In this document: positions 26,725 through 58,645 of the stretch, piece after piece
How positions within the stretch are numbered: the first letter of the stretch is position 1
Layout: the number at the start of each line of letters is the position of its first letter
DNA from: Mya arenaria
Taxonomy: Eukaryota > Mollusca > Bivalvia > Myida > Myidae
NCBI RefSeq assembly: GCF_026914265.1
Contig: NC_069131.1
Location: 3,259,501 to 3,323,500, forward strand
Direction: 5' to 3'
DNA length: 64,000 nt
Notes under the pieces: generated by a model
The model's input: the letters and a program-made list of their open reading frames with translations, nothing else
Database searches by the model: none
Told to the model about the DNA's origin: nothing
Made by a program: the position numbers and the translations under genes

Positions 26725-27436
26725 TTTCTAGAAACTTAGGTGTTGACAGATCGCAAGCAGTGGTTAAATGAACCTAAGATTGCCGAAGTACGAATATTGG
26801 AACACTTTAGGTTAAGAATCGGTACATGTGGGTTGAACACCTATTCTGTAAACTAGAACAAGCACTGTTTACATTTTTAATCTGTCAAGTGAATCGATCA
26901 GTGCGCATGCCCGAAATTTTGGTAGAGCAAGTTACAAGAATACACTACCCAATAACAGAGGACTACAAACCAACTTGTATCGTATCTCAATGCTGACATT
27001 GGTTACTCGATTTTGACTGTGAGTTAGATTATTGGTCCCAGATTTTGATGAATTCATGTAATAAAAACCACGGCAAAAATTGAAACGTGTTAGCGAACAT
27101 TGTGCATTTTGGTTACTTGTTACATCCATTTAAACACAAAATAATATACATGTAAGCCTGGTGAAGGTACAGCAATTACGTAGAATTTGAAAATTGAGTA
27201 TAATCAATTACAAACTTCCAGCATTAACTTATAGAGACTCGTTCATGTTTTCAGACCAAAAGTGTGTTCACAAAAATGCAACTGAACGCACCAATTTTAT
27301 AATAATTTTACTCTTTAAACCCTAAATTTCAGAAAAAAAATCAAGTAGATCTATATAAACAAATGTTCTAGTGTTAGTAGGGAGCGAACCAACGCCGGTA
27401 CAGTCATGAAAAATAAATAAAATAGAAAGCGAAGCT
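26725..27436. promoter_or_regulatory. GCLC 5' flank (putative promoter/5'UTR region)
   Basis: Upstream of the GCLC ATG. No clear TATA box or known element can be assigned by eye. 27,378-27,405 carries GAGCGAACCAACGCCGGTAC, nearly identical to 34,726-34,750 and 46,358-46,382, so part of this flank is a third copy of sequence lying 3' of the C1q genes. Confidence 0.4.
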
Positions 27437-28667
27437 TGAGAACTAGACCACAAGGACTGATACACCACCTGGGGTTGTATTTGAGAACTAGACCACAAGG
27501 ACTGATACACCACCTGGGGTTGTATTTGAGAACTAGACCACAAGGACTGATACACCACCTGGGGTTGTATTTGAGAACTAGACCACAAGGACTGATACAC
27601 CACCTGGGGTTGTATTTGAGAACTAGACCACAAGGACTGATACACCACCTGGGGTTGTATTGAAAACTAGACCACAAGGACTGATACACCACCGGGGTTG
27701 TATTTGAGAACTAGACCACAAGGACTGATACACCACCTGAGGTTGTATTTGAGAACTAGACCACAAGGACTGATACACCACCGGGGGTTGTATTTGAGAA
27801 CAAGGCCACAAGGACTGATACACCACCTGGGGTTGTATTTGAGAACTATAACACAAGGACTGATACACCACCTGGGGTTGTATTTGAGAACTAGACCCCA
27901 AGGACTGATACACCACCGGGGGTTGTATTTGAGAACTGAGGTTGTATTTGAGAACTAGACCACAAGGATTGATACACCACCTGGGGTTATATTTGAGAAC
28001 TAGACCACAAGGACTGATACACCACCTGGGGTTGTATTTGAGAACTAGACCACAAGGACTGATACACCACCTGGGGTTGTATTTGAGAACTATAACACAA
28101 GGACTGATACACCACCTGGGGTTGTATTTGAGAACTAGGCCACAAGGACTGATACACCACCGGGGGTTGTATTTGAGAACTAGACCACAAGGACTGATAC
28201 ACCACCTGGGGTTGTATTTGAGAACTAGACCACAAGGATTGATACACCACCTGGGGTTGTATTTGAGAACTAGACCACAAGGACTGATACACCACCGGGG
28301 GTTGTATTTGAGAACTAGACCCCAAGGACTGATACACCACCTGGGGTTGTATTTGAGAACTAGACCACAAGGACTGATACACCACCTGGGGTTGTATTTG
28401 AGAACTAGACCACAAGGACTGATACACCACCTGGGGTTGTATTTGAGAACTAGACCCCAAGGACTGATACACCACCGGGGGTTGTATTTGAGAACTAGAC
28501 CACAAGGACTGATACACCACCTGGGGTTGTATTTGAGAACTAGACCACAAGGACTGATACACCACCTGGGGTTGTATTTGAGAACTAGACCACAAGGACT
28601 GATACACCACCTGGGGTTGTATTTGAGAACTAGACCACAAGGACTGATACACCACCGGGGGTTGTAT
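27437..28667. repeat. 45-bp minisatellite (~27 copies)
   Basis: Unit TTGAGAACTAGACCACAAGG plus ACTGATACACCACCTGGGGT and TGTAT. Variants alternate CCTGGGG and CCGGGGG. Because 45 is divisible by three and the unit lacks stops in several frames, long 15-residue-period frames exist on both strands; they have no signs of a real gene. The array sits between GCLC (minus) and the BRICHOS gene (plus). Confidence 0.95.
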
Positions 28668-28910
28668 CCAATAAGTATCTTAGTAACAATTTTCCACTTA
28701 GTGAAAAATTGTCCTTTTTCTAATTTGAATTATAAGAAAAATAACAATCTTTGTACACCAAAAATATGAAAATAAGCAAGAAAATGGTCCCAGCAAGATA
28801 TGCATATGAAGAGATCTGATGAAAAGTAGCGGGTATTTAAAATAATTGTTGTCAAAAATTACGAAAATCTCACTATAAAGTTGAAAATATGCTTAATAAT
28901 TGAATTATTT
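28661..28910 (+). mobile_element. MITE family B, truncated copy
   Basis: GGGGGTTGTATCCAATAAG at the end of the 45-bp array matches the left end of the element at 18,122. The following 200 bp share its interior (ACACCAAAAATATGAAAATA, AGCAAGAAAATG). The right inverted end is not visible. The last minisatellite unit merges with the MITE end. Confidence 0.7.
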
Positions 28911-31047: not shown

Positions 31048-31473
31048 TCATTTTAGGGGAAACTCGGGCCATGCCCCGCAAGTGTACGCGAGTGGTTGGT
31101 CAATATATATTATACCCCTCGCCCGGGAACGCGCCTTCCTTGCCCATGCTACGCCAGTGTGATAATTTACAGTTTGTCCTACTTTGAAAGCCAATGAGAT
31201 TGCTGCATTTCGTTTTAAATTTGAAAAATATTTCCCATATTGTGCAATTCGTCCCTGATATGAACTCCGATACAGAGAAAATACAGTGATATTTGGCCTA
31301 CGTGACTTTTCTAGAAAGTAGGCGGAGCCTGTATTGTTTACAAGTTGCTGAGTATCCAATGTAAGAAGTTGTGACACTGTAACATCATTATAACTAGAAT
31401 CAAAATTCGACATTTCTTCAAACAAAAAGTTTTTAAAGAACTCATTATCACTATCCAGAATTGTAAAGTCCAT
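31048..31473 (-). CDS. Unrecognised 141-codon open frame
   Basis: Starts MDFTILDSDNEFFKNF and is rich in acidic and aromatic residues at first, basic later. I do not recognise a family and see no signal peptide or membrane segment. The initiator lies 477 bp upstream of, and divergent from, the BRICHOS gene. It could be a first exon, a transposon-derived frame or chance. Nothing on the strand supports splicing to another exon. Confidence 0.2.
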   Translation of the reverse strand: MDFTILDSDNEFFKNFLFEEMSNFDSSYNDVTVSQLLTLDTQQLVNNTGSAYFLEKSRRPNITVFSLYRSSYQGRIAQYGKYFSNLKRNAAISLAFKVGQTVNYHTGVAWARKARSRARGIIYIDQPLAYTCGAWPEFPLK

Positions 31474-31949: not shown

Positions 31950-34135
31950 ATGACGGCCATATCACTGGTGACGGAGAAACAGCCGACGGACAAGGTATAC
32001 TCATTTTAAGTACAGTTTGCTATATTGACCAAACTATATTATTTCTTAAAAGCGTCAGACCGCATATAGTTTAATCAGTGTTTTAAATCACCTGTAGTTG
32101 ATTGTTGGAGTCGTCTTGATGTGCGTGCCTTTATACTATCAATATATTAAATTAATTTTATCATTTATAACAGGAGTGCGGCGTCCAAGAGAAATCCCGG
32201 CGGTTTGTACTCGAACGGAAGTGCATTATGGGCACCTTTCTGGGGTTTCTGCTAGTAGGGATGCTGGCGGCCGCCATCTACGTGAGCGCCGTGATCACAA
32301 CTAACCATAAAAAGGGGGACATGGAGGTGGGTAGTCAATTTGCGGGGAAACCGTTTGGTGTTGATACAAACTGGAACTAGAAAAAAGCCGTAAATACCAT
32401 CAATTTAAAACATCATAATATTGTATTGATAAATAACATATTTTTTTGGGCAGAAGAACAATCAACAGGGAAAAGCGTACGTGAGCGCAGAGCGCGTGCA
32501 GGAATTCGTATCGTGCAACACCAGAAGTCACGTGGTACAGATCAGAGTTCCAGACCAGGGCATCGTTTTCATAGACTTTGAGAGGGTATAGCAATTTCTA
32601 TTCTAATAATGGACGGACTTTACCAGAAATACGAGTATATCATATTGAACATTGGATATCATTTATCTCTGTCCTCATTTTTGAAACCGGCGTCGTTCAT
32701 TTATTTCAAAAGCAGTAACAAATATACACCTGTATGCACGATATTCGACTTTAATGTACTAGAACACCATGTTCTAAGACGGTACTTATTTCGGTTGAGG
32801 GGCGGTGGGGGTCGCATGGCCCAGGCAAATACACCGCTCTTCTTACCCCAACCCCATGGAACTATCACCGAGTACGAGATGTTGTCGTCAACTTTTCGAT
32901 TGTTGTGATTTCAGCGGCTGAAGATCCTGACGTTCAGCCATATCAAGCACGTGTGTTTTGTGGCCGAGATTACAGACATGGCCACCGAGCCCCTCAGTCA
33001 CACTGATGTTGAATCTAACTTCACTGTAAGTCAGGCTCTTACTGTTATAATACTACATGTACATTTCAACTTATTATCAATTGAGATTCCTGTAGAAGCT
33101 TCTTGCCTAGGATAAACGTTATAATACTAGTATACTGTACCATACCGATAAAATAGGATACTAAATATCAGGAACTATTTTTTTATAAAACAACAAAACA
33201 GGTGTGTTATGAATGTTATGCTAGATGTTGATGTCTGTGACGCCGTATATTCTCAGTTTTTAATGACAGGTAATATAAATGACAACAAATACATTGCAAA
33301 TGCAGTTATCGTAGTTTATAGTTTTGTTCAACCGCTTTCGGAAGTGAAATGGCCGTTTTTTTATCGTTCAAGGTCAAATCAGATTATTTGCAATATTGTA
33401 TTTATTTTTATATAATACTAACACATTCTTCCTCCACACATTAAGCCCTACGACACCAAAATATTGCTGGGAAAACAGACATCAAACTTTCACATGATTG
33501 CACAAGAGAGACTTAAGTCACTGCATCAGTTTCAGTTCGTTTAAACTTCGGATCAGTTGTTACTGACTGCTTCAATGGAAACGATAACACTGTTTCTTTC
33601 TTCCACAGATGGCAGTTAAAGGAACGCCGGTAGCGGATGTGTACGTCGCTGACGTCACTTACGATGTCAAGCGCTTACCGGAAGTAACTCAGCACATATG
33701 TAAGGTTGCCTTCCACGCCAAACGTAAAACCAATTCAGGTACTCAGACCTACTGAATATTACAGCCAAAACATGTACTCAAACCTACTATACTAGCTATT
33801 ACAACAAACACATGAACTCAGAGATACTGGCTATTACTGCACGTCAATTCAGATCAAGCAACGCCCGTGGCTTTCTGCTTTGAATATTCATTATACACAG
33901 AGCCATATGGTTGTTCTCTTTCATAGCACATGTACTGGATGTCTGAATTCCTCATCTGAATCTGTTTCTTCTCTTTCACAATCCAGAACCAGTTAGGACG
34001 GACAGACGCAAAAAGAGGCAATGTGGCCAGTCATGTATCATGGTGTGTGACCCGAGAACCCATCGTTGTAGACGCCAATGCGTCCGCAACCCCTGTCCGC
34101 GCCGCTGTACCCGGGAAAGACCATGCTCAGTTTAA
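31950..34135 (+). CDS. BRICHOS-domain precursor of an eight-cysteine cationic peptide
   Basis: Six exons: 31950-31994, 32174-32326, 32454-32585, 32915-33025, 33609-33738, 33987-34135; all GT..AG, phases consistent, 239 residues. Residues 1-32 are a basic cytosolic tail, ~33-57 one membrane helix (type II). Residues ~90-180 fit BRICHOS: VFIDFER with the conserved Asp (D107), and the paired cysteines C124 (HVCFVAEI) and C178 (HICKV). A furin-type site RRKKR (197-201) precedes a 38-residue tail with eight Cys (203, 207, 211, 218, 222, 227, 231, 237), nine Arg and only two acidic residues. In annelid arenicin-like precursors BRICHOS chaperones a C-terminal antimicrobial peptide; the same layout here suggests, but does not prove, an antimicrobial product. 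The cysteine spacing is not that of arenicins or big defensins. The gene converges on a C1q gene. Confidence 0.9.
33446..33544 (+). other. Possible alternative terminal exon of the BRICHOS gene
   Basis: After a pyrimidine-rich stretch (TTCTTCCTCCACACATTAAG) a 99-bp open frame beginning PYDTKILLGKQ would join exon 4 in phase and end with TAA, giving a protein without the cysteine-rich peptide. In the duplicated segment (near 39,365) the AG is changed and an early stop appears, so the exon is not conserved. It may be a decayed exon. Confidence 0.3.
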
Positions 34136-34359
34136 AGAGGGACTTCCGCTGTTGAAGATTGTATAGCGTCTGATATCTAAGTAAAGCCCGACATCTCCAC
34201 TGTTTGGGAAATTTTGAATGCGCAACGTTGCCATGCATGCCTTTGTTTTAAATCTTAACACAGAAAAATGATTTATATATAAGTTTGATACATTCGTATA
34301 TACCTATACACGTTGTTCTGTACCATTCTAACTTCCGATTGGTTGTCGTTACTTTTTAT

Positions 34360-34365
34360 AATAAA
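34360..34365 (+). terminator. Poly(A) signal, BRICHOS gene
   Basis: AATAAA about 225 bp after the stop codon, followed by an A-rich and then T-rich stretch. The duplicated copy keeps AATAAA at 46,084-46,089. Confidence 0.6.
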
Positions 34366-35158
34366 GTGAGAGTTAAAAAAAGTTTCTCTTTTTCCAAGGA
34401 TGTTCAAAAGTGAGACCTAAATCCAAAGTTTGTTTCATTTCTGTACATTATACCAGAGTAATCTCCTTAGAAAATTAATGCGTGAAAAAAATGGATTAAG
34501 AACTGCTTGTGATGAAAAGAAGGTCTTGTCTTAGGCAGGTCCGTGAAGGGTTGACGCCCTACTGATTGCGTGGATTTATCTTTTGAAGCACGTGGCTTAA
34601 AACACATTTTTAAAAACAAAAATTACGGTAATGCATCTTGAAACACTTATATCATAAAATTCTAATCTTTGGTAACGAAATTACAGAAACAAGACAATGA
34701 AAGTATATCAAATCTCGTTTTAAAGGGGAGTGAACCAACGCCGGTACAGTAAGATTTAAAGCAAGAACTGATCACAAAACCTCACACCGACGAGGACAGG
34801 CGAAAACTAAGGGATGATTTAACCTTTCAGCCTTATTAAAAAGAGAATCTAAAGCTATTTTTAATTGTGGACTTCAAAAATAATATTTGGGCATATACAA
34901 GCATTTGTTGAAGGGCTCAAACCGTATTTTGTCATGTAACAGTGCCTTCTATAAACCCTGTACGAGGTCCTTTAAAACAACTTATATATGGGCAGTATGA
35001 CAGATAAGGACTTTCACTTACTCATTATTTTGTAAATATTAACAGTCTGAAACTGGATGCAACATAGACTATGCTCTTACACGTCGCAAAAATACATTTA
35101 CATAAGAAGAGGGTATACAAGAGAGATGATAGCTATACAATGTACTGATAAAAGCCTA

Positions 35159-35325
35159 GATGATGATGATGGTGATGATGATCATGGTGATGGTGGTGAT
35201 GGTGATTATGATGATGATGATGATGATGATGGTTGTGGTTGTTGTGGTGGTTGTGGTGATGATGATGATGCTAATGATGATGCCGCTGCTGCTGCTGCTG
35301 CTGATGATGATGTTGATGAATTAAA
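35159..35325. repeat. (GAT)n / (GCT)n microsatellite
   Basis: Imperfect GAT, GGT and GCT triplets. The poly-acidic open frame read through it is a product of the triplet repeat, not a gene. The duplicate at 46,829-46,862 is pure (GAT)n. Confidence 0.9.
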
Positions 35326-35388
35326 TTGTTGAACATCGTTAACGTTGCAACAGGAAACAAAAACAATATCAAAACAGGTTTCAGACAC

Positions 35389-35394
35389 TTTATT
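35389..35394 (-). terminator. Poly(A) signal, intact C1q gene
   Basis: AATAAA on the minus strand 13-18 bp after the C1q stop codon at 35,407. Confidence 0.6.
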
Positions 35395-35406
35395 GAAACG
35401 TAATGC

Positions 35407-37911
35407 TTAACCAATCAGGTTCATGCCTTCGATTTCAAACAGCTGAAACCCCGAGAACATGGTATGACAGTATCCATGGATGTCAGCGACTGTGTTAGGG
35501 GCAACTCTTGCACGTATCCAAACCTCGGACCCACGCTGTAGCTTTAGGGTCCACATTTCACCGACGCTGGCGTAAGTTGAGCTTGATCCGGCATCGGACA
35601 GGACATCGTCGATTCTTCGACCATCTTGTACGATTTCCAGGTACAAAGCGTGGTGGGCTGTAGACATTGCCGACAGATGGAACGCGTAGACGCCGTCAGA
35701 AGGCGCGCGGAAGATGCCAGTGGTATTGTGATATGCGTTGCCATAGTTTGTGAGAAGGTGGTCGAATACAATCACGTGATGGTTACCAAGATTGGTCAGA
35801 TCGGCAGACCCAATACATGCAGTGAAGGCCGCTGGTCCTTCCGAACCTACACAATTATATTACCAATAAATAAATCATTACCTTGTATAAGTTCTGTATA
35901 GTTCTAGTTGTATATGTATGCTTGCATAGATAATAAACCGTTGATCTGTTATTGATATATTCAAGATACAGTTCGAAACGTTTTTTTTTCAATTACCTGT
36001 TATCAAATGAGGTGATGATGGCTGATTACATTACTCTCCATTAAAGCTGCACTCACACAGATTTACCATCTTGACAACTATAATTATATTTTGTCATGAC
36101 ATGACCCAATTTATGTAAAAAAATCATGTAAACCAGTCATATAAGACAGCTGACAAAACACTAGATTTCAGATTTTTATATTTAAGTTCAAAAAATGATG
36201 TTTTATGCATTTTTCTTAAACCGTTAGTAACGGTTTTAGCCATAAAACATTTATTTTGGAATGGAAATATGAAAATCTGCGATCTGACCTTTTGTCAGCA
36301 GTCTTTTATCACTGGTTTGCAGATATTTATGCAAAAAATTGCTCATTTAAAGACAAAAAAAGTTGTAAAAACGGTTAATCTGTGAGAGTGCAGCTTTAAG
36401 GACTCCATGTCTATTAATAAACAAAGACACTGACTCTGTACGTATTGTGTGGAGAACTCAGTAACACTAAGGATATATTTGTATGTAGGTATATTCTTCC
36501 AGAAATCTGTGATATAATAAATTCAAAGAGCAAATACTAATTAAAACACACAAAAAGATAATCGTAAATAATATTAATTGCTGTTCCAATAAATCTTCCT
36601 TTTCCAAATAAATCAAATAGTATAAACAATATTATTATTTTATAAATTGTAATCCGTTTGGTCAAACGTTCCGAAGCTGGATATGCCTATTTTCAAACGC
36701 AGAAACACATATTATTTTTTTGCTTTGGCCGCATCTGTGTTCACGTTTTGCCTTATGTATAAGCAGAGGTTAAATAAGCTTACTGCACCATGCATCTATG
36801 GAAATAGTTTTAAAATAGTCTAAATACAGTTTACAACTTTTTGCATACAAATTACCACCCAAATATATATGATTTCCACAAGCGGTTTCAGGGGTGCGGT
36901 TGCCCCCCACCCCCACACACCCACACATTAAAATCGACCAAATTACTTTGTATGTTAACGGAGGAAAAGGTAGTAAAATACGCTCATGAATTGCTAAACA
37001 TTTCTTGGAGGAGTACCGCCAAACCCCTCTGTCAACATTTTAAACCATTTAAATTTCTGGTATGAGGGAAGGGGGCATGTCAAACGAAACCGGGCATACA
37101 ATATATGTGTGTAAAACACATCTCCTTATTCATTAGGAACATTTTGTAATGAAAATGCGTATTATTGACGTATTGGCCCGTAATCACTGACGTCTGAAAT
37201 CTGAGACTCAGACCAAGAAAAACAAAACCTTAATTTGGTATTCAAAATAAATGTTATTATAGGAGCAAAGATGATCAAGAATGATGTACCTGTAAAGATA
37301 TCCGTTTACAATCAAACAGACACCTTTTAGAAATATATGTATCTGTGTTATTATAGATATATATTTTGAAACAATTATGCATTCAACTTTCTGAGTGCGG
37401 GTGTAAAACTGATACTCAAGAGGCTAGTGAATGCAGACCCTGATGGTACCTACCCTGTCGACGAGCCCTACGGTTCCTCCCTTGAGCGAACCCTTGCGTG
37501 GACGTCTGAAGAACAAAAAGCGTATGACGAATTTAACATGGACACGTGGATACTGTTTGGCATACCGTCATGCATTCAATATGATTATATTTGTTTAGAA
37601 ATTATAGAGGCTGTGGACGTCTATCTTACAGCTTCGACGATTCTTATTGTTAGACATACCTGTTTCAACGATTCCATCTCTTTCTTCAGCTGAGCATTTT
37701 CAAATTGCAATACGGCAATGTCCTTCTCTTTTTTAGCGCTGTTTGCCTGGATGAGCGCTTCTAAACGCCCAATGTCCTTTTTATATGTCAGCATCAAGTC
37801 ATTGATTGTAGTTCGAAGTCCTCCATGTTCCTTTTTGCAGCGGTCTTCTTGTTGGGCAGAAGTCAAAGCAAAAACCCATGACAAAACGATTAAAATGTTG
37901 AAGCACGCCAT
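35407..37911 (-). CDS. Secreted coiled-coil C1q-domain protein (intact)
   Basis: Three exons on the minus strand: 37911-37660, 37505-37454 and 35846-35407, 247 residues. Exon 1 gives a signal peptide (MACFNILIVLSWVFALTSAQ) and a short coiled coil to residue 84 ending MESLKQ. The 52-bp middle exon gives a basic linker containing RRARRQ, a possible proprotein-convertase site. Exon 3 holds the whole C1q domain: AFTACIG, VIVFDHLLTNYGNAYH, GIFRAPSDGVYAFHL, YASVGEMWTLKLQRGSEVWIR, FSGFQLFE. Such single-domain C1q proteins are secreted, assemble as trimers and serve as lectin-like recognition molecules in bivalve immunity and other processes. Splice phases fit exactly (0, then 1). The gene converges on the BRICHOS gene and was duplicated with it. 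Confidence 0.95.
36041..36399. mobile_element. TTAA-flanked MITE, family C, copy 3
   Basis: Ends TTAAAGCTGCACTCACACAG and CTGTGAGAGTGCAGCTTTAA. The second duplication copy has an unoccupied site (CTCTCCATGAAGGACTCC near 47,870), where TGAA stands in place of TTAA. This is direct evidence of an insertion after the duplication, or of a clean excision. Confidence 0.92.
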
Positions 37912-38869
37912 TCTAAAGCCCGGACAGAACTAAATAACTTGCAGTATTATTTATCAAAAGGTTATGTAACTCTACTGGGTCAAAGTTCTTTCTCAACAAC
38001 CCAGATACAGTCCTTGAAATTACAAGCCAATCAACCCATTTCAAATTTAATTGTACATAATCTATACATTCTTATAGTGAGCATTTTTAGTTGTTCCTTA
38101 GTTGTTTGGAATGGCTGTAATATAATTCTTCAATATTGTGTCAGTAAAAGTATTGTTGGTTTCCTGGTCAGAAGTTTTGCCTAGTTGATCTATTTGCGGT
38201 ATACATGCTCTTATCTGGCTTAAGACTTGACACAGATATATAAAAGGAAGGGGAAACGAAAATGTAGGGGAATGACCTAACGAGAGTACTGTAGCTTTTA
38301 AATGACATAATGTGTGGTTTTCGGCTCGGTATCGCTTGTTGTATAAGGCCTTTATTGACTCATTTCTGAGATTCTTGATTGCAATCAATCAATGCATGAC
38401 ACACGTACAGCTACATTCATTATTCATACAGCTACGAGTTAAATTGCACAAGTCTAATATTATATCCTATTCAAGGATTCTAATTGCGAATGTTTTATGC
38501 AACATTATAAAACAATTACGTGACATGTTCCCTGCTCTTTGATTGATGACGTTCAATTTGTTCATCGAAACAAAAAAAGTTATTTAGTGAACATGCCATT
38601 TCACAGTTCAAACACATGCGTATGACCTTGCCAAATATAAGGCGACTATAAATTAATTGCTAGATTTTCATCTCTTTTTCCTTCGTCCCTTAAATTGTAT
38701 TGACTCAAGTGAAAATGTAGAACAAGGGTCTGTATTTGCGTATCGGTCCGGTATTGTCCGGGATTGGCTTTTATTCATACGTACGGTGTCGATGTGTTCA
38801 ATACGATCGTGTTCGTATTTCGTCTAAAACACATGAAACATTCATCTAAATATAAAACATAAAATCTAT

Positions 38870-39165
38870 TGTATCGGCCCAAGTACTAAACGACCAGATA
38901 CATACATGTTGTTCGGCCTCAGTATTCAAGACCAGGTACATGCATGTTAATCGGCCTAAGTACGCAACGACCAGAAACAGACATGTTTTATCGGCCTAAG
39001 AACTCAGCAACCTCATACAAACATGTTTTATCGCCTAGATATATACATATGTTGTCGACCTAGAACTCTACGAGCAGATAAATACATATTTTGTCGACCT
39101 CAGAACTCAACGACTACATACATACAGGTTTTACAGACTAAATACAGATATGTTTTATCGTCCTA
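38870..39165. repeat. Degenerate ~45-bp tandem repeat at the duplication junction
   Basis: Five to seven diverged units with TATCGGCC(C/T)AAGTAC, CAACGACCAGA and TACATACATGTTTT. It separates the two segmental copies and may mark the breakpoint. GTTTCATCGGCCTACCTC beside exon 3 of the coiled-coil gene (55,180-55,197) is similar. Confidence 0.65.
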
Positions 39166-39529
39166 CCTTCTCTTCCCTCCTCTTTACTGACAGGTAAAAT
39201 AAATGATAACAAATACATTGCAAATACAGTTATCGTGGTGTGTAGTTTTGTTCAACCGTATTCGGAAGCGAAATGGCCGATTTCTATCGTTCAAGGTCAA
39301 AACAGATTGTTTGCAATATTTGATTTATTTTTACTTAGTATTCACACTTTCTTCCTCCACACACTAATCCATTCGACACCAAAATAATGTTGGGTCAACA
39401 GACATCAAACTGTCACATTATTGCACAAGAAAGACTTAAGTCGCTGCATCAGTTTTAGTTCGTTTAGACTTCAGATTTGTTTTTGTGACTGCTTCAATGG
39501 AAACTATAACTCTGTTTTATCTTTCCCAG

Positions 39530-42500
39530 ATGGCAGTTAAGGGAACGCCGGTAGCGGATGTGTACGTCGCTAATATCATTTATGATGTAAAGCGCTTACC
39601 GGATGTAGCTTAGCACATCTGTAAGGGTGCCTTCCACGCCAAACTTACAGCCATTACAGGTACTCAGACCTACCGACTATTACAAATTATACATGTACTC
39701 TGACCTACTGACTTTTACCACCAATACATTTACTCAGACATACGACCAACACTGGAACTCAGTCCTTCTGCATTTTACAACTAACACAGGAACGCAGACC
39801 TTCTGGCTTTTACAACTAACACAGGAACTCAGACCTTCTGGCTATTACTAAAAATACATGTACTCAGACCTTCTGGCTATTACTACAAACACATGAACTC
39901 AGACCTTCTGGCTATTACAACCAACACATGAACTCAGACCTTCTGGCTATTACAACCAACACATGAACTCAGACCTTCTGGCTATTACAACCAACACATG
40001 AACTCAGACCTTCTGGCTATTACAACCAACACATGAACTCAGACCTTCTGGCTATTACAACCAACACAGGAACTCAGACCTTCTGGCTATTACTAAAAAT
40101 ACATGTACTCAGACCTTCTGGCTATTACTAAAAACACATGTACTCAGATCTTCTGGCTATTACAACCAACACATGAACTCAGACCTTCTGGCTATTACAA
40201 CCAACACAGGAACTCAGACCTTCTGGCTATTACTAAAAATACATGTACTCAGACCTTCTGGCTATTACTAAAAACACATGTACTCAGATCTTCTGGCTAT
40301 TACAACCAACACATGAACTCCGACCTTCTGGCTATTACTACAAACAAATGTACTCAAATCTTCTGGCTATTACAATCAACACATGAACTCAGACCTTCTG
40401 GCTATTACTACAAACACATGTACTCAAATCTTCTGGCTATTACAACAAACACATGAACTCATCCCGTCTGGCTATTAATACAAACACATGTACTCAGATC
40501 TTCTGGCTATTAAAACAAACATATGTACTCCGACCTTCTGGCTATTACTACAAACACATAAACTCAGACATTCTGGTTATTACTACAAAAACATGTACTC
40601 AGATCTTCTGGCTATTACTACAAACACATGTACTCAGACCTTATGGCTATTACAACTAACACGGGAACGCATACCTTCTGTCTATTACAACAAACAGATG
40701 TACTCGGATCTTCTAGCTATTACATCTAACACAAGAACTCAGACCTTCTGGCTATTACTACAAACACATGAACTCAGATTTTCAGGCTATTAAACCTAAC
40801 ACAGGAACACAGACCTTCTGGCTATTACTACAAACACAGGAACGCAGACCATCTGGCTATTACAACCAACACATTTACTCAGACCTTCTGGCTATTACAA
40901 CCAACACATTTACTCAGACCTTCTGGCTATTACTACAAACAGAGGAACGCAGACCATCTGGCTATTACAACCAACACATGAACTCAGACCTTCTGGCTAT
41001 TACTACAAACACATGAACTCAGATCTTCTGGCTATTACTACAAACACATGTACTCAGACCATCTGGCTATTACAACCAACACATTTACTCAGACCTTCTG
41101 GCTATTACTACAAACACAGGAACGCAGACCATCTGGCTATTACAACCAACACATGAACTCAGACCTTCTGGCTATTACTACAAACACATGAACTCAGACC
41201 TTCTGGCTATTACTACAAACACATGTACTCAGACCTTCTGGCTATTACAACAAACACATGTACTCAGACCTTCTGGCTATTACTACAAACACATGGCCTC
41301 AGACCTTCTGGCTATTACTACAAACACATGAACTCAGACCTTCTGGCTATTACTACAAACACATGGCCTCAGACCTTCTGGCTATTACTACAAACACATG
41401 AACTCAGACCTTCTGGCTATTACTACAAACACATGAACTCAGACCTTCTGGCTATTACTACAAACACAGGAACTCAGACCTTCTGGCTATTACAACAAAC
41501 ACATGTACTCAGACCTTCTGGCTATTACTACAAACACATGGCCTCAGATCTTCTGGCTATTACTACAAACACATGTACTCAGACCTTCTGGCTATTACAA
41601 CCAACACATGTACTCAGACCTTCTGGCTATTACTACAAACACAGGAACTCAGATCTTCTGGCTATTACAACCAACACATGTACTCAGACCTTCTGGCTAT
41701 TACTACAAACACATGTACTCAGACCTTCTGGCTATTTCAACCAACACATGTACTCAGACCTTCTGGCTATTACAACAAACACATGTACTCAGACCTTCTG
41801 GCTTTTACTACAAACACATGTTCTCAGATTTTCTGGCTATTACAACAAACACATGAACTCAGATCTTCTGGCTATTACAAGCAACACCTGAACGCAGGTC
41901 TTCTGGCTATTACTACAAACACATGTACTAAGACCTTCTGGCTATTACTACAAACACATGTACTCAGACCTTCTGACTATTACTATAAACACATTGACTC
42001 AGACCTTCTGGCTATTACAATCAACACATGAACTCAGATCTTCTGGCTATTTCAAGCAACACCTGAACGCAGGTCTTCTGGCTATTACTACAAACACATG
42101 AACTCAGATCTTCTGGCTATTCCAACTAACACATGAACTCAGACATTATGGCTATTACTACAAACACATGGACTCAGACCTTCTGGTTATTACAGCTATC
42201 ACAGAAACGCAGACCATCTGGCTATTACATCCAACACATGAACTGAGACCTTCTGGCTATTACTACAAACACATGTACTCAGACCTTCTGGCTACTACAA
42301 GTAACACATGAACTCAGACCTTCTGGCTACTACAAGTAACACATGTATTCAGACCTTCTGGCTATTACAACAAACACATGTACTCAGTGTTCTTGGCTAT
42401 TACTACAAACACATGTACTCAGATCTTCTGGCTATTCCAACTAACACATGAACTCAGATCTTCTGGCTATTACAACAAAAACATGTACTCAGTGTTCTTG

Positions 42501-45500
42501 GCTATTACTACAAACACATGTACTCAGACCTTCTAGCTATTACTACAAACACATGTGCTCAGACCTTCTAGCTATTACTACAAACACATGTACTCAGACC
42601 TTTTGGCTATGTCTACAAAAACATGTACTCAGACCTTCTGGCTATTACTACTAGCACATGTACTAAGACCTTCTGGCTATTAAAACAAACACATGTCCTC
42701 AGACCTTCTGGCTATTACAACAAACACATGAACTCAGACTTTGTGGCTATTACTACAAACACATGTACTCAGACCTTCTGGCTATTACAACCAGCACATG
42801 AACTCAGATTTTCTGGCTATTACAACAAACACATGAACTCAGATCTTCTGGCTATTACAAGCAACACCTGAACGCAGGTCTTCTGGCTATTACTACAAAC
42901 ACATGTACTCAGACCTTCTGGCTATTACTACAAACACATGTACTCAGACCTTCTGGCTATTACTATAAACACATTGACTCAGACCTTCTGGCTATTACAA
43001 CCAACACATGAACTCAGATCTTCTGGCTATTTCAAGCAACACCTGTACGCAGGTCTTCTGGCTATTCCAACTAACACATGAACTCAGACATTATGGCTAT
43101 TACAACCAACACATGAACTCAGACCTTCTGGCTATTACTACAAACACATGGACTCAGACCTTCTGGTTATTACAGCTATCACAGAAACGCAGACCATCTG
43201 GCTATTACAACCAACACATGAACTGAGACCTTCTGGCTATTACAACCAACACATGAACTGAGACCTTCTGGCTACTACAAGTAACACATGAACTCAGACC
43301 TTCTGGCTACTACAAGTAACACATGTATTCAGACCTTCTGTCTATTACTACAAACACATGTACTCAGTGTTCTTGGCTATTACTACAAACACATGTACTC
43401 AGGCCTTCTAGCTATTACTACAAACACATGTGCTCAGACCTTCTAGCTATTACTACAAACACATGTACTCAGACCTTTTGGCTATGTCTACAAAAACATG
43501 TACTCAGACCTTCTGGCTATTACTACTAGCACATGTACTAAGACCTTCTGGCTATTAAAACAAACACATGTCCTCAGACCTTCTGGCTATTACTACAATC
43601 ACATGAACTCAGACTTTGTGGCTATTACTACAAACACATGTACTCAGACCTTCTGGCTATTACAACCAGCACATGAACTCAGAACTTCTGGCTATTACTA
43701 CAAAGTACAAACACATGCACTCAGACTGTCTCGTTATTACAACAAACACATGCACTCAGATTTCTTTGCTATTACTACAAACACATGTACTCAGACCTTC
43801 TAGCTATTACTACAAACACATGTGCTCAGACCTTCTAGCTATTACTTCAAACACATGTCCTCAGACCTTCTGGCTATAACTACAAAAACATGTACTCAGA
43901 CCTTCTGGCTATTACTGCTAACACATGTACTCAGACCTTCTAGCTATTACTACAAACACATGTGCTCAGACCTTCTAGCTATTACTTCAAACACATGTCC
44001 TCAGACCTTCTGGCTATAACTACAAAAACATGTACTCAGACCTTCTGGCTATTAAAACAAACCCATGTACTCAGACCTTCTGGCTATTACCACAACCACA
44101 TGAACTCAGACCTTCTGGCTATTACTACAAACACATGTACTCAGACCGTCTGGCTATTACTACAAATGCATGAACTCAGATCTTCTGGCTATTACTATAA
44201 ACACATGTACTCAGACCTTCTGGCTATTAATACAACACATATACTCAGACCTTTTGGCTATTACTACAAAAACATGTACTCAGACCTTCTGGCTATTAAT
44301 ACAACACATGTACTCAGACCTTCTGGCTATTACTACAAAAACATGTACTCAGACCTTCTGGTTATTACTACAAACACATGCACTCAGATTTCTTTGCTAT
44401 TACTACAAACACATGTACTCAGACCTTCTAGCTATTACTACAAACACATGTGCTCAGACCTTCTAGCTATTACTTCAAACACATGTCCTCAGACCTTCTG
44501 GCTATAACTACAAAAACATGTACTCAGACCTTCTGGCTATTAAAACAAACCCATGTACTCAGACCTTCTGGCTATTACCACAACCACATGAACTCAGACC
44601 TTCTGGCTATTACTACAAACACATGTACTCAGACCGTCTGGCTATTACTACAAATACATGAACTCAGATCTTCTGGCTATTACTATAAACACATGTACTC
44701 AGACCTTCTGGCTATTAATACAAGACATGTACTCAGACCTTTTGGCTATTACTACAAAAACATGTACTCAGTTCTTCTGGCTATTAATACAACACATGTA
44801 CTCAGACCTTCTGGCTATTACTACAAAAACATGTACTCAGACCTTCTGGTTATTTCTACAAACACATGCACTTGGACCTTCTGGCTATTATAACCAACAC
44901 ATGAATTCAGATAGTCTGGCTATAACTACAAACACATGTACTCAGACCTTCTGGCTATTACTACAAACACATGTACTCAGACCTTCAGGCTATTACTACA
45001 AACACATGTACTTAGACCTATTGGCTATTACTACAAACACATGTACTTCGACCTTCTGGCTGTTACTACAAACACATGTACACAGACCTTGTGGCTATTA
45101 CTACAAACACATGTACACAGACCTTGTGGCTATTACTACAAACACATGTACTTCGACCTTCTGGCTGTTACTACAAACACATGTACACAGACCTTGTGGC
45201 TATTACTACAAACACATGTACTTCGACCTTCTGGCTGTTACTACAAACACATGTACACAGACCTTGTGGCTATTACTACAAGCACATGTACTTCGACCTT
45301 CTGGCTGTTACTACAAACACATGTACACAGACCTTGTGGCTATTACTACAAACACATGTACTTCGACCTTCTGGCTGTTACTACAAACACATGTACACAG
45401 ACCTTGTGGCTATTACTACAAGCACATGTACTTCGACCTTCTGGCTGTTACTACAAACACATGTACACAGACCTTGTGGCTATTACTACAAATGCATGTT

Positions 45501-45862
45501 CTCATGTAAACATGTATACTGCATATATAAATCTCGGCTGCGCATGTCCCCGACCCCCCAGAAAAACCAAGCCTGCACATCAATTCTGGTCTAGCAACGC
45601 CCGTGGCTTTCTGATTTGAATATACCCAGAGCCATATGATTGTTCTATTTCATTATACATCCACTGGATTTCTGAATTCCTCATCTGAATCTGTTTCTTC
45701 TCTTTCACAATCCAGACCGTCCGGACGGACAGGCGCAAAAAGAGGCAATGTGGCCAGTCATGTATGATGGTGTGCGACCCTAGAACCCATCGTTGTAGAC
45801 GCCAATGCGTCCGCAACCCCTGTCCTCGCCGCTGTACCCGGGAAAGGCCATGCCTAGTTTAA
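39530..45862 (+). pseudogene. 5'-truncated BRICHOS gene copy (last two exons only)
   Basis: Exon 5 copy 39530-39659 carries an in-frame TAG at 39,611-39,613 where the intact gene has CAG (before the conserved HIC). Exon 6 copy 45716-45862 lacks two bases just after the acceptor, shifting the frame. The membrane and N-terminal exons are absent. The last 38 codons nevertheless keep all eight cysteines and the RRKKR site, with two amino-acid changes (I to M, S to L). The intron between the two exons is ~6.06 kb versus 248 bp in the intact gene. Confidence 0.9.
39660..45500 (+). repeat. 35-bp minisatellite, ~165 copies, in the pseudogene intron
   Basis: Unit ACATGTACTCAGACCTTCTG plus GCTATTACTACAAAC. 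It starts at the exon 5 donor (CAG|GTACTCAGACC), which itself reads like the repeat. The unit contains no stop triplet, so all three plus frames stay open for long distances with a 35-residue period; these are not genes. Higher-order structure is visible: a ~875-bp block repeats around 42,040-42,900 and 42,900-43,780, a ~490-bp block around 43,930 and 44,420, and a 70-bp dimer fills 45,010-45,490. Copy 1 has only about three units (33,739-33,845). Confidence 0.96.
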
Positions 45863-46827
45863 AGAGGCCCTTCCGCTGTTGAAGATTGTATTGCGCTCGT
45901 TATCTTAGTAAGGCCCGACACCTTCATTGTTATTTGACATTTTAAATGTGCAGTGTTGTCATGCATGCCTTTACTTCAAATATTATCACAGAGAAATGAT
46001 TTATATATAAATTGACACATCCGTACATACACATACACGTAGTTCTGTATCATTCCAACTTCCGACGGGTCGTTACTTTTTATAATAAAGTGACAGTTAA
46101 AACAAAAGTTTTCTTTTTCTTTTTCTAAGGATGTTAAAAATGCGACCTTAATCTCCAAACTTTGGCATATTTCTGTCTATTTTACCAGAGTAAAATGGAT
46201 TTAGAACTGCTTGTGTTGTAAAGAAGAGCTTGTTTTAGGTGGGTCCGTGAAGGGTTGACCTCCTGATTGCGTGGATTTATAATAATATTCTAATCTTTGA
46301 TACCGAAATTACAGAAACAAGACAATTAAAGTAATAATCAAATCTGGTTTTAAAGGGGAGTGAACCAACGCCGTTACAGTCAAGATTTAAAATAAAATGA
46401 TCACAAAACCTCACGCCGACGAAGACAGGCAAAAACTAAGGGATGATTTAACCTTTAAGCCTTTTGTTGAAAAGCGAATCTAACGCTATTCTTAATAGTT
46501 GACTTCAAAAATTATATTTGAGCATATATCAACATTTGTTGAAGGGGTTAACCGTCAGTATCTTAGATTTAACACTCCTTATGTTTTACCACACATAATT
46601 TTGTCATAAAACAGTGCCTTCTATAAACCCTTAACGAGGTCCTTTAAAACAAATTATATATGGGGAGTATGTCAGATAAGGACTTTCACTTACTCATTAT
46701 TTTTAAAATATTAACAGTCTGAAACTGGATGCAGCATAGATTTACACGTCGCGAAAATACAATTACAGAAGAGAAGGTATACAAGAGAGATAATAGCTAT
46801 ACTGATAAAAGCCTAGATGGTTCGTCG

Positions 46828-46828
<1 letters not shown>

Positions 46829-46862
<34 letters not shown>
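46829..46862. repeat. (GAT)n microsatellite
   Basis: Pure GAT triplets, the copy-2 equivalent of 35,159-35,325 but shorter and without the GCT portion. Confidence 0.9.
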
Positions 46863-47290
46863 CCTTAAGACAAAAGTTGGTACACTTGACGTATTAAATT
46901 GTTAAACATTGTTAACGTTGCAACAGGAAACAAGAACAATATCATAGGTTTCAGACACTTCATTGGAACATTTATCCTTAACCAATCAGGTTCATGCCTT
47001 CGATTTCAAACAACTGAAACCCCGAGAACATGGTATGACAGTGTCCATGGATGTCAGCGAGTGTGTTAGGGGCAACTCTTGCACGTATCCAAACCTCGGA
47101 CCCACGCTGTAGCTTTAGGGTCCACATTTCACCAACACTGGCGTAAGTTGAGCTTGATCCGGCATCGGACAGGACATCGTCGATGACTCGACCATCTTGT
47201 ACGATTTCCAGGTACAAAGCGTGGTGGGCTACAGACATTGCCGACAGATGGAACGCGTAGACGCCGTCAGAAGGCACGCGGAAGATGCCA

Positions 47291-47540
47291 GGCCCCAATT
47301 TCTCGAAACTTCTTAAGCTTAACAGGCTTAAGTCGCTTATTTCAAATTGCCTAAAAACATACTAAAATGGATTTTGATAAATGAGAAATATCTTATCGTC
47401 ATTATTATTTAGAATATTCCTACACAATTTCTAAAAACTCTTTAAAAAGTAAATAATACGCATTTTATAGAGCTACAAAAATAGTGAGATTAGCTTAATC
47501 CTGTTATAATAGACTTAAGAAGTTTCGAGAAATTGGGGCC
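47291..47540. mobile_element. 250-bp MITE, family A, inside the C1q exon
   Basis: Starts GGCCCCAATTTCTCGAAACT and ends AGTTTCGAGAAATTGGGGCC, perfect 20-bp inverted ends extending further (TTCTTAAG). Copy 1 gives the empty site GATGCCAGTGGTATT, so the boundaries are known to within a few bases; the target duplication is 1-3 bp (A or CCA) because the ends overlap the target. Related elements: 3,364-3,613 and 56,342-56,550. Confidence 0.95.
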
Positions 47541-47984
47541 AGTGGTATTGTGATAGGCGTTGCCATAGTTTGTGAGAAGGTGGTCGAACACGATCACGTG
47601 ATGGTTACCAAGATTGGTCAGATCGGCGGCCCCAATACATGCAGTGAAGGCCGCTGGTCCTTCCGAACCTACACAATTGTATAACCAATAAATAAATCAT
47701 TACCTTGTATAAGTTCTGTATAGTTCTAGTTGCATATGTATGATTGCATAAATAATAAACCGTTGATCTATAAGTGATATATTCAAGATACAGTTTGAAA
47801 CGGTTCGTTTGTTTAAACTACCTTTCTTAAAATTAGGAGATGATGGTTGTTTAGATTACTCTCCATGAAGGACTCCATGTCTATTATAAACACACACACT
47901 GATTCTTTACGCATTGTATGGAGAGCTCAGTAGCACTATAAATATTTTTGTATGTATTTTTCCAGAAACTAATTAGAACACACA

Positions 47985-49057
47985 TATACCAACAAGAGGG
48001 CCACCATGGCCATTATCGCTCACCTGAGTAAAAGTGTTTAACCTTTGGAATCAATATAGCTTAATATATAATCTCAAAGCTGTACATGTGATAAACTGTA
48101 GTTTCAAAAATAAGGAACTAGGTCAAAAGGTCACCATGCAATGTCAATATTGATATATGTTTTCAAGCTTTCACATGCTCGAACAGAGACATCAAAAATA
48201 AGAAAGGTCAAAAAGGTACAATAAAGGTAATCCAAGCACAGCATTGATATTTGTTTTCAAAACAGTACACATGGTCCAAATGCTATTGCTGCACCTGAAA
48301 AAGAGTAGGTCAAGAGTCACAGTCAAGGTCATCCGAGGACAATATTGATATTTGTTTTCAAAACTCTACATATGGTCCAAATTTCATGTTGTAGCTTCAA
48401 AAATAAGAAAGTAGGCTAAGAGGTCACAGTCAAGGTCATCCAACATTATTATTTGTTTACAGAATAGTGAACATGGTAAAAAATGGTTCGTTGTAGTTTC
48501 AAAAATAAGACAGTAGGTCAAAAAGATTGGGACCGAATTTTACCCAAGTTGCGTAATTTGCACAATCTTGGTAGAGGACCACTATATGATGTTCGTTACA
48601 AATTATTAAAGGTCTGGGCCTAGCGGTCTCAGAGGAGAAGATTTTCGATAAGTCCACAGGAAACCTCATGGCATAGCGAGTTTTGACACAAGAGGCTCTG
48701 TGACCTAGTTTTTGACACCAGATGACCCATATTCGAACTTGAGCTAGATATCAACGAAACAACCTTTCTGACAAGTTTCAAGGATATTTGGACTGAAAAG
48801 GTAGCCTCTAGAGTGTTACCAAGATTTATCTATTTTTGGGTCATGTGACGTAGTTTTTCATCCCAGATGACACATATTCGAACTCGTCCGAGTATTTACT
48901 GAGACAAACATCCTGACTGTTTATGACAATTGAGACAAAAATGTGACCACTGTAGTGTTAACAAACTAAGTGTGGACGTCCGATGGACGACCGACGAAAG
49001 ACGACGGACATTCATCGATCCTAATAGCTCACCCTCAGCCTACAGCTAAGGTGAGTT
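47985..49057 (+). mobile_element. ~1.07-kb dispersed repeat inserted in copy 2
   Basis: Starts AACAAGAGGGCCACCATGGC and ends CAGCTAAGGTGAGTTA. Copy 1 lacks it, with AACACACAAAAAGATAATCG spanning the site. The body has repeated GGTCACAGTCAAGGTCATCC and ATTGATATTTGTTTTCAAA blocks. No coding frame was seen; type unknown. Confidence 0.7.
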
Positions 49058-50659
49058 AAAGAGATAATTGTAAATAGTATTATTAGTGCTGGAATATGCA
49101 AAATAAATGTTATTTTAGGAGCAAAGATGATCAAGAATGATGTACCTGTTACAAATGATTTGTTTTACAATCAAACAGACACCTTTTAGAAATTCATGTA
49201 TCTGTTTTATAGATATACATTTTGAAACAATTATGAATTCAGTTTTCTGAGTCTGAGTGTAAAACTGATACTCAAGACATAAGTGGATACAGACCCTGTC
49301 GACGGGCCCTACGGTTCCCCCCTTGAGCGAGCCCTTGTGTGGACGCCTGAAGAACAAAAAGTGTATAATGAGATTGACATGGACACGTGAATATTGTTTG
49401 GCATTACGTAATGCATTCAATATGATTTTTTTTAGTTTAGAAACTATACATGCTGTGTACGTCTATGTAACAGATTCGATGTATTTAATTGTTACTTGTT
49501 AGAAATACCTGTTTCAACGACTCCATCTCTTTCTTCAGCTGGGCATTTTCAAATTGTAATATGGCAATGTCCTCATCATTTTTAGCGCTGTTTGCCTGGA
49601 TGAGCCCAATGTCCTTTTGGTACGTCAGCATCAAGTCATTGATTGTAGTTCGAAGTTCTCCGAGTTCCATTTTCAAGTGCTCTTCTTGTTGGCCAGAAGT
49701 CATAGCAAAAGCCCATGACAAAACGATTAAAATATTGAAGCACGCCATTCCAAAGCCCGGACAGAACTGAATAACTTGCAGGATGATTTATCAAACGGTT
49801 ATGTAACTACATACTGGGGTAAAGTTCTTTCTCAACAACACAGATTCAGTCCTTCACAATACCTTGGAATTACAAGCCAATCAACCCATTTCGAATTTAA
49901 TTGTACATTATCTATACATTGTTATAGGTGAGCATTTTTAGTTGTTCCTTAGTTGTTTGGAGTGGCTGTTATAGAATTCTTCAATATTGTGTAAATAGAA
50001 GTATTGTTCGTTTCCAGGTCAGAAGTTTTGCCTAGTTGATCTATTTGCATTATACTTGCTCTTATCTGTCTTAAGACTTGACACAGATATATAAAATGAA
50101 GGGGACACGAGCAATGTAGGGGAATGACCTATCTAGATTAGCTTTTAAATGACATAATGTGTGGTTTTCGGCTCGGTATCACTTGTTGTATAAGGCCTTT
50201 ATTGCCTCATTTCTGAGATTCTTGATTGCAATAAATCAAAGCATGACACAAGTACAGCTACATTCATTATTCATATAGCTACGAGTAAAATTGCACAAGT
50301 CTAATATTATATCCTATTCAAGGATTCTAATTTGGAATGTTTTATGCAGCATTTAAAAACGTGACATTTTCCCGGCTCTTCGATGACGTTCAATTTGTTC
50401 ATCGAAACGAAAGCAGTTATTCAGTAAGCAAACCCATGCCATTTCACAGTTCAAACACATTGAGTATAACATTGCCAAGTATAAAGCGACTTTAAATTAA
50501 TTGGATTTTCATCCTCGCCCGCGCCTTCTTTTTTTTCCATCGTCCCTTTAATCTTAGTGACTCAAATAAAAATGTTGAAATATGATCTGTATTTACGTAT
50601 CGGTACGGTACTGTACGGGAACGGCGTTTATTCATGTGTTAAATTACGATCGTGTTCGT

Positions 50660-51405
50660 GGTTCCTCGACAACACATGTATATAGTCCCTTATGCAATAA
50701 GAAAGAGCACGAGCACATATTCAACAATGAAACAGTTATCAAGAAAAAATGTCACCCCACCGTTTGAAAAAAAATCTAGCAATTAATTTATATTGGCCTA
50801 ATACAAAATAGACGAAAAGGAAGTTAAGAAACGAATAATCTTTTCAGCGTTTTATTGATGTATGATCTGTCAGAAAACAACACGTATAATTTGAATAAAC
50901 ACCAAAGAAAGACTAGATGAAATATTTTGATCAAAACAAATAAGACGCAATTAGCAATTCTAATTAGAACCATCACAACCCCGTTACAACACAGAGATAG
51001 TTCAAATTTTCCAGTGAATTATTGCATAATATGAAATGAAAAAACAACAACTTACAGTTGTGTTTAATTTTTACAGTACAATAGCAAAAGCAAGTCACAC
51101 ACATATAATATTTCATGTGTAAATGAGAGCTCGCATATGGGAAATGATATGAAGTTTTTCGTTCGCAACCAAGCGAAACAAGGTGTCAAACGAAAAGTGA
51201 CAATGGTTGACCAAAGATACAGTATATAAGGCATTGGAATCTTAAATATTGAAATTGTAAAGGGATAAACATGTGTAACATTTCACAAACAAATGCTCAA
51301 AGAAAATTACATCATAAAGCAGCACCCGATTAGAACACTTTAAAACAGGGCAAGTACTTAAATTCTAGAAACCTGTAATGACCTTATTCGAATACACTTT
51401 CGTTC
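50660..51405. other. Intergenic, nothing recognised
   Basis: AT-rich DNA between the second duplication copy and the 3' end of the coiled-coil gene. It probably contains that gene's 3'UTR (minus strand), but no poly(A) site can be fixed. Confidence 0.4.
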
Positions 51406-57929: not shown

Positions 57930-58645
57930 AATCAAGTGTTTTGTAATGCTTTAAAGTTGTTTTTCTCATCCAGCGCGAAACTGTTCAAGTTTTAATAAAT
58001 CAGAACTGTCGTTCAAGTTGATGAGACTGGTGCGTTTCCATAGCATGCTATTCAAAATAGGAGAGGCTAGGATTATCGTTTTTCAGTAATACGTGCATAA
58101 TGTAGAAAGTGATTCCATGATGTTGTACTTTCAGCTCCCACATGCGGCGTCACGTCATTGCAAAATGTCTGAAAAGTGATAGAAAGAACGTAAACAGAAA
58201 AAAATCCGATTGTTTAGATAGTGTTCTGTAAACACACCAGGAATGTCGGTAACGTTATATCCATATACTATAACTGATAGAATGAATATTGCACAAGAAA
58301 TGTAAATTATATTTCTTGATTCTTAAGAGTATTATATTCAGAATTTATCAGCAATTTAAGTAAAACTCTTTCATTTGCTACAATAAATTTCATGTTTTAC
58401 AGAAATAACACCCACCATCATTCCAATGGTAATTTACAATATTCATAATTATACATTACATCATGTATTGATATTTCGCAACAGCTGCTTTTACAGTGCG
58501 AATAAAAGAAGTGTATAGTAGAAAGTTAAGCAGATGTAGAAACACTCAGTGATTTGTGAAATCAATGGTTTATCATTCTGATAAGACAGGATGAAATACA
58601 GGGACAAGTATGGTAGCATATAACACCTAACACTGCTATTTAAAC
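57930..58645. promoter_or_regulatory. 5' flank of the coiled-coil gene
   Basis: Upstream (minus strand) of the first ATG. No core promoter motif can be assigned with confidence. AT-rich and otherwise unremarkable. Confidence 0.3.

Follow-up and report, generated by a model that had tools for sequence, protein, structure and literature searches.

A BRICHOS-like precursor gene in Mya arenaria with a putative cationic eight-cysteine peptide and a duplicated peptide exon

Gene model and precursor architecture

We analysed a 64,000-nt stretch of the genome of the bivalve Mya arenaria (NCBI RefSeq assembly GCF_026914265.1, contig NC_069131.1, positions 3,259,501 to 3,323,500 of the forward strand; this whole stretch is called the window, and positions are counted from its first nucleotide). 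At 31950..34135 on the forward strand it contains a six-exon gene for a predicted membrane-bound precursor that ends in a cysteine-rich, cationic tail (Table 1). The gene model was obtained by joining exons in silico with a script, so that splicing is itself part of the model. GT/AG borders are present at all five introns (5/5), exons 1 to 5 end in phases 0, 0, 0, 0 and 1, and the resulting coding sequence of 720 nt specifies 239 residues and a stop codon; at the sequence level, an intact gene model with consistent splice phases is thus supported for the precursor protein.

The precursor has a single hydrophobic segment, judged by hydropathy only, whose best 19-residue window begins at residue 38 (mean 2.41) and is preceded by an N-terminus of net charge +2, an arrangement of charge and hydrophobicity compatible with a type II membrane anchor. 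Beyond the linker, D107, C124 and C178 stand in the right order for the BRICHOS core, which consists of one Asp and two Cys conserved across all BRICHOS families (PMC2751770; here and below, statements from cited papers refer to excerpts of their texts). The same source orders BRICHOS proteins as hydrophobic region, linker, BRICHOS and C-terminal region, and this superfamily layout recurs here, with the membrane part again assigned by hydropathy. The only N-glycosylation sequon, NFT at residue 145, lies in the pro-region. Downstream of a furin-type site, the eight cysteines of the 38-residue tail (nine Arg, net +7) are separated by gaps of 3, 3, 6, 3, 4, 3 and 5 residues. At this level the original prediction was reproduced: its intact six-exon gene was recovered, its type II membrane helix corresponds to the one hydrophobic segment in the right layout, and D107, C124, C178, RRKKR, the tail length, the cysteine pattern, the nine Arg and the charge of about +7 agree exactly.

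Table 1 Features of the precursor gene and of its partial tandem copy
Feature	Position in window	Strand	Basis or content
Exon 1	31950..31994	+	start ATG; predicted cytoplasmic N-terminus
Exon 2	32174..32326	+	hydrophobic segment, beginning of linker
Likely type II membrane helix, residues 34-55	32228..32293	+	hydropathy; limits by eye
Exon 3	32454..32585	+	linker, then first part of BRICHOS-like domain with D107
Exon 4	32915..33025	+	BRICHOS-like domain with C124; NFT sequon at 145
Exon 5	33609..33738	+	end of BRICHOS-like domain with C178
Exon 6	33987..34135	+	end of pro-region, RRKKR, eight-Cys peptide, stop
RRKKR (residues 197-201), furin-type site R-K-K-R	34004..34018	+	motif
Predicted mature peptide, 38 aa, 8 Cys, 9 Arg, net +7	34019..34132	+	translation
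AATAAA, possible polyadenylation signal	34360..34365	+	starts 225 nt past stop; copy counterpart at 46084
Tandem duplication, first unit: from late intron 4 through exons 5-6 and past the C1q gene	33259..39182	+	DNA comparison
Tandem duplication, second unit, enlarged by minisatellite and at least one insertion	39183..50678	+	DNA comparison
Exon 5 copy, in-frame stop at 39611-39613	39530..39659	+	12 amino-acid-changing, 5 silent differences
Minisatellite, 35-nt unit, 164 copies, between exon 5 and exon 6 copies	39757..45504	+	Tandem Repeats Finder (TRF)
Exon 6 copy, 45/47 compared residues identical, RRKKR and 8 Cys kept	45716..45862	+	alignment

A second, partial copy of the gene

A tblastn search of the window with the precursor protein returned stretches resembling exons 5 and 6 downstream of the gene, and DNA comparison showed a head-to-tail duplication in which the sequence from 33259 onward is repeated from 39183, the last aligned part pairing 37239-38835 with 49095-50678. 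The first unit aligns to its copy up to 38835, and the junction lies within 38836-39182. A copy of exons 1-4 was not found by tblastn of the window or by a protein search of the genome (1.216 Gb, 18 contigs; E values up to 10), a search that scores best candidates only and would miss distant relatives. All matches of this genome search (7/7) fell inside the window, which among best candidates rules out a large recent gene family. The copied exons are 6056 nt apart, as against 248 nt in the parent, because a 35-nt minisatellite lies between them. About three related 35-nt units can be seen by eye in parent intron 5, where BLAST matches the array and TRF reported none; the array apparently expanded once the duplication had taken place.

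The two copied exons have fared differently. The exon 5 copy has a ratio of amino-acid-changing to silent divergence (dN/dS) of 0.71, whereas over 47 codons the exon 6 copy has 7.5 silent differences and 2.5 that change an amino acid (dN/dS 0.08), and the 45 nt upstream of it, which comprise the acceptor region, are identical to the parent. A 2-nt deletion at the start of the exon 6 copy changes its phase from 1 to 0, which puts it out of frame with exon 5 and in frame with exons 1-4. When a neutral copy branch was simulated, two or fewer amino-acid changes arose in 1.3% of runs. The protein sequence of the peptide exon seems to be held by selection, and the pair of copies suggests selection on the peptide while the adjacent chaperone exon decays; these tests of selection were chosen after the alignment had been seen, and the counts are small. 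Recent gene conversion is an unlikely source of the conserved exon 6 copy, since its silent sites are no less diverged than the flanks (proportion of silent differences, pS, 0.23 versus 0.13).

It is possible, if somewhat doubtful, that the tandem copy is dead, with exon 6 a chance survivor, and that only the first gene matters. The stop codon and relaxed dN/dS of the exon 5 copy would fit such decay, as would the frame-breaking deletion in the exon 6 copy; in simulation, 14% of neutral copies retain all eight Cys and acquire no stop. Other duplicated parts are nearly as similar as exon 6: identity is 93.6% for exon 6, 89.8% for the intergenic part and 78.6 to 90.2% over the other aligned parts. 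The low dN/dS of exon 6 and the rarity of so few amino-acid changes under neutrality speak against chance survival, together with the retained 45 nt and AATAAA and with the silent differences that oppose gene conversion. The contrast between exons 5 and 6 depends on how the fractional counts are rounded, with a Fisher p of 0.018 for counts of 2 and 8 and of 0.057 for counts of 3 and 7; the higher value makes a dead copy more likely. A dead copy is compatible with a host-defence role for the first gene, and both can hold.

Comparison of the tail with chondromodulin and tenomodulin

Chondromodulin-1 (CNMD/LECT1) and tenomodulin (TNMD) each contain, in type II orientation, a BRICHOS domain followed by a furin-type site and by eight C-terminal Cys in four disulfides (PMC3622668, PMC11173128), and the clam precursor resembles them in its type II form, its BRICHOS-like region, its basic cleavage site and its eight-Cys C-terminal domain. 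We therefore weighed whether the gene is a protostome counterpart of this family, whose eight-Cys domain would regulate host cells (adhesion, migration or growth, at the matrix or cell surface) and would not be an antibiotic; we consider this unlikely. The parts follow the same order from type II helix to eight-Cys C-terminal domain. The sequence of human chondromodulin used here, which agrees with the residue numbers of PMC3492907 at the positions checked, has mature Cys at 68, 69, 72, 79, 83, 99, 103 and 109. Its gaps of 0, 2, 6, 3, 15, 3 and 5 equal those of the window peptide at four of seven places (6, 3, 3 and 5), a match attained by 3 of the 210 orders of the window gaps and expected with a chance of 6e-5 when eight Cys are placed at random over the same span. 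Tenomodulin shares three of seven gaps (4/210 orders as good).

The comparison covered five gap vectors in all, the others being mussel defensin, mytilin B and myticin A. The mussel defensin vector also equals the tail at 3/7 gaps (23/210 orders as good), which lessens the weight of the chondromodulin match; mytilin B agrees at 2/7 (76/210) and myticin A at 1/7 (150/210). The central gap is 4 residues in the window peptide as against 15 in CNMD and 11 in TNMD, a loop whose length already varies between those two proteins (PMC3492907), and the first two gaps are 3 and 3 as against 0 and 2 in CNMD. The tail, which unlike both proteins carries a charge of +7, lacks their aromatic (Tyr/Trp-rich) loop, hydrophobic C-terminal tail and long glycosylated segment beyond the furin site; aromatic loop and hydrophobic tail are reported as important for chondromodulin activity (PMC3492907).

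Beyond the cysteines, the tail showed no similarity to the CNMD or TNMD C-terminal domain above that of shuffles: Cys-fixed shuffles aligned as well in 4523/5000 (CNMD) and 2223/5000 (TNMD) cases, and full shuffles in 2560/5000 and 874/5000. The best local alignment to CNMD was out of the proposed register, and that to TNMD was in register for C-x6-C-x3-C. AlphaFold modelling of the tail alone from a single sequence, and hence weak evidence, gave a mean predicted local distance difference test (pLDDT) score of 74.6 and a predicted template-modelling (pTM) score of 0.37, with strands at tail residues 6-10 and 17-21; its hairpin register differs from the chondromodulin expectation (C218-C222 against C227-C231), which tells mildly against a counterpart. 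A genome search with human CNMD yielded one chance-level match (E 5.4) and one with human ITM2B a single match (E 1.4), both at loci whose frames look unrelated by eye, in searches whose sensitivity for other BRICHOS genes is not established. According to the excerpted review, the chondromodulin family is restricted to vertebrates (PMC11173128). On its sequence, the precursor is a protein with the chondromodulin/tenomodulin plan that fails as a member of the family.

CS-alpha-beta defensins are defined by C-x3-C plus a C-x-C pair, and CS-alpha-beta identity of the tail was rejected, as gaps of 3, 3, 6, 3, 4, 3 and 5 contain no C-x-C pair. The mollusc CS-alpha-beta defensin MGD-1 is alike in its eight Cys, cationic character and gap run 3-6-3; unlike it, the window peptide lacks a C-x-C pair, and we know of no BRICHOS precursor for MGD-1. 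The inner gaps 3-4-3 would equal the tachyplesin gaps, a likeness left unused since one paper prints C-X4-C-X4-C-X4-C instead. Foldseek with the tail model gave 0 matches.

Probable descent of the pro-region from BRICHOS

We regard BRICHOS descent of the pro-region, as a divergent case, as probable, because the core residues are present and the hydrophobic segment, linker, domain and basic site follow in the right order. Of the BRICHOS-like domain claimed in the original prediction, the core Asp, Cys and Cys and their order held, and the family match did not. That prediction had named a missing BRICHOS profile hit beforehand as grounds against it, and the protein did not match Pfam PF04089 at E values up to 10, where HMMER filters remove most matches above 0.1; human chondromodulin matched BRICHOS at 1.2e-20 with the same Pfam library.

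Other results similarly weigh against BRICHOS descent and the host-defence reading built on it. A hidden Markov model (HMM) made from four human BRICHOS domains, which also served as the hhalign reference, gave 4.5 bits for the region and 3.2 for the whole protein, and of 2000 shuffles of the region 24 reached its score (1918 had any score). The hhalign comparison returned a probability of 0.2 on a 0-100 scale and an E value of 0.29. The Asp-to-Cys distance is 17 here versus 16 in the four references, and the strict core motif, which demands V, I or L two residues before the Asp, is absent, the residue there being F where the four references have V. In favour of descent, D107 falls on the conserved Asp and C124 on the first conserved Cys in both the HMM and the hhalign alignment. 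Without a Pfam match, the BRICHOS call therefore stands on the core residues, the weak HMM scores and the architecture.

Were the pro-region outside BRICHOS altogether, the gene product would be an orphan, a membrane protein of type II that ends in a cationic Cys-rich tail and whose Asp, Cys and Cys are arrayed by chance; we judge this quite unlikely. The missing Pfam match and the low HMM and hhalign scores favour such an orphan, and no related exon was found elsewhere in the genome among best candidates. It would have to accommodate four regions in the right order, a furin-type site where one is expected, and a core motif that is rare by chance: the relaxed form, with V dropped, fits the protein and occurs in just 14 of 200000 shuffles, whereas the strict form occurs in 4/200000 and a form allowing V, I, L, F or M two before the Asp in 1/200000. 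These counts are optimistic in that the motif, which tolerated the 17-residue Asp-Cys distance, was relaxed only after the strict version had failed. The bare core motif found no match when the window was translated in all six frames, which is uninformative as introns split the motif in this gene too. Searching the genome for Pfam families was likewise uninformative, with no signal even in the controls. The PDB sequence search gave two chance-level matches each for the whole protein and the pro-region, and scans of IMG/VR and GTDB gave no relative.

A possible host-defence peptide and its precedents

We propose, with confidence and doubt in about equal measure, that the gene product is a BRICHOS-type proprotein, anchored as a type II membrane protein, from which a cationic peptide with a role in host defence is set free. 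Such a precursor would enter the secretory pathway with its C-terminus luminal, and the BRICHOS-like domain, if so folded, would assist folding of the Cys-rich C-terminus. A furin-like convertase could cleave after RRKKR late in the secretory pathway and free the 38-residue, +7 peptide, presumably with four disulfides. The released peptide would most likely act extracellularly in host defence, probably by electrostatic binding to negatively charged microbial surfaces and not as an amphipathic membrane-piercing hairpin. In support, RKKR directly precedes a Cys-rich +7 tail, the layout described for BRICHOS-related worm antimicrobial peptides, and the neighbouring gene is of the C1q family, which is tied to innate immunity in bivalves (PMC4203926). 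In the same study, a BRICHOS domain protein appears together with a defensin-like one among the digestive-gland transcripts that rise in mussels fed toxic algae.

Several further observations pull the other way. The tail contains no aromatic residue (no F, W or Y), and its hydrophobic residues number 13/38 counting Cys and 5/38 excluding Cys; the hydrophobic share is reported as 45% in worm capitellacin and 47% in horseshoe-crab tachyplesin-1. A classic membrane-inserting hairpin is less likely because of this lack of aromatic residues and the few non-Cys hydrophobic ones. The tail was unmatched in a PDB sequence search of solved structures. A basic site alone is no proof of cleavage, because the C-terminal domain of tenomodulin stays uncleaved in NIH3T3 cells (PMC3622668), and in published models of tenomodulin and chondromodulin the BRICHOS groove does not hold the mature part (PMC9714404), so that chaperoning of such a domain is uncertain. 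The mussel study, as excerpted, involved no infection and no strong immune response was apparent in it, and two of its C1q transcripts decreased (PMC4203926).

Precedents come mainly from annelids. BRICHOS-related antimicrobial peptides, several with dibasic convertase sites, are described from polychaetes (PMC10745061, PMC7761999, PMC6780910, PMC9756803, PMC6265681), and the excerpted texts of 2019 and 2022 know them from polychaetes only (PMC6780910, PMC9756803); in 2026 two were predicted in coral (PMC12960093). The annelid peptides (arenicin, alvinellacin, capitellacin, HfBRI) resemble the clam precursor in having a hydrophobic segment, a BRICHOS pro-region, a dibasic furin-type site and a cationic C-terminal peptide. 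They differ in that most have zero to two disulfides and that capitellacin is more hydrophobic; HfBRI-75 and HfBRI-91 have 11 Cys, yet are not markedly cationic. Of the features that mark such peptides, RRKKR and the +7 tail are seen here, and the BRICHOS pro-region is the one without a Pfam match. AmBRI-44a of the marine annelid Arenicola marina is likewise BRICHOS-related and defensin-like with four disulfides (PMC11767717, PMC12466427); it has 44 residues by its name versus 38 here, and the likeness concerns its BRICHOS relation and disulfide number. AmBRI-44a and chondromodulin rule out a peptide class without precedent. Among the papers listed by searches pairing BRICHOS with mollusc terms, a listing outside which subscription papers mostly fall, none reported by title or abstract a BRICHOS peptide released in a mollusc, which does not prove absence.

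These precedents alter what can be said of novelty. The tail had been called new-looking in the original prediction, which did not mention the chondromodulin/tenomodulin layout, AmBRI-44a or the second partial copy at 39530-45862; that word is too strong, as AmBRI-44a is in print and chondromodulin and tenomodulin typically have an eight-Cys domain downstream of BRICHOS and a furin site. The interpretation is plausible, and less novel than claimed. As to the four-disulfide, BRICHOS-released antimicrobial peptide proposed there, the gene, its layout, the furin-type site and a conserved peptide exon stand, the BRICHOS assignment is weakened, and the antimicrobial action is something that we infer. 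What appears new, as far as the searches show, is the combination of features, the host group (a mollusc) and the conserved spare peptide exon. A mollusc gene combining features of BRICHOS antimicrobial peptides and of chondromodulin would make a shared origin testable. Reviews, as excerpted, confine the former to polychaetes and the chondromodulin family to vertebrates.

A bolder and rather improbable extension would see one ancient module, in which the Cys frame of chondromodulin and tenomodulin is that of the worm and mollusc defence peptides; this gene would retain the anchor, the chaperone and some of the chondromodulin Cys frame, with the aromatic loop shortened to a turn of 4 residues and a charge of +7. 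The duplicated terminal exon, in phase 0, would in addition be a spare that could be joined in frame to exon 4 (or to exons 1-3), and a peptide of the same kind would result from a precursor in which the chaperone domain is cut short or missing.

Neighbouring features of the window

The C1q-domain gene adjoining the precursor gene lies at 35407-35859 on the minus strand (Pfam C1q, 1.4e-19). Its copy in the second unit of the duplication (46981-47361 and 47493-47696) has its frame broken by an insert at 47291-47540 that resembles a miniature inverted-repeat transposable element and whose 27-nt terminal inverted repeats are perfect. A 141-aa open frame (31048-31473, minus strand) just upstream of exon 1 had no Pfam match at E values up to 0.1, and neither did a 280-aa open frame at 57093-57935 (minus strand). 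Long frames with repetitive translations at 11164-11913, 27351-28769, 52525-55170 and 58890-62802, several of them open on both strands, were read as tandem repeat arrays. By eye, the 57093-57935 frame is Ser/Thr-rich with a coiled-coil-like end, and it is perhaps an exon of an ordinary gene.

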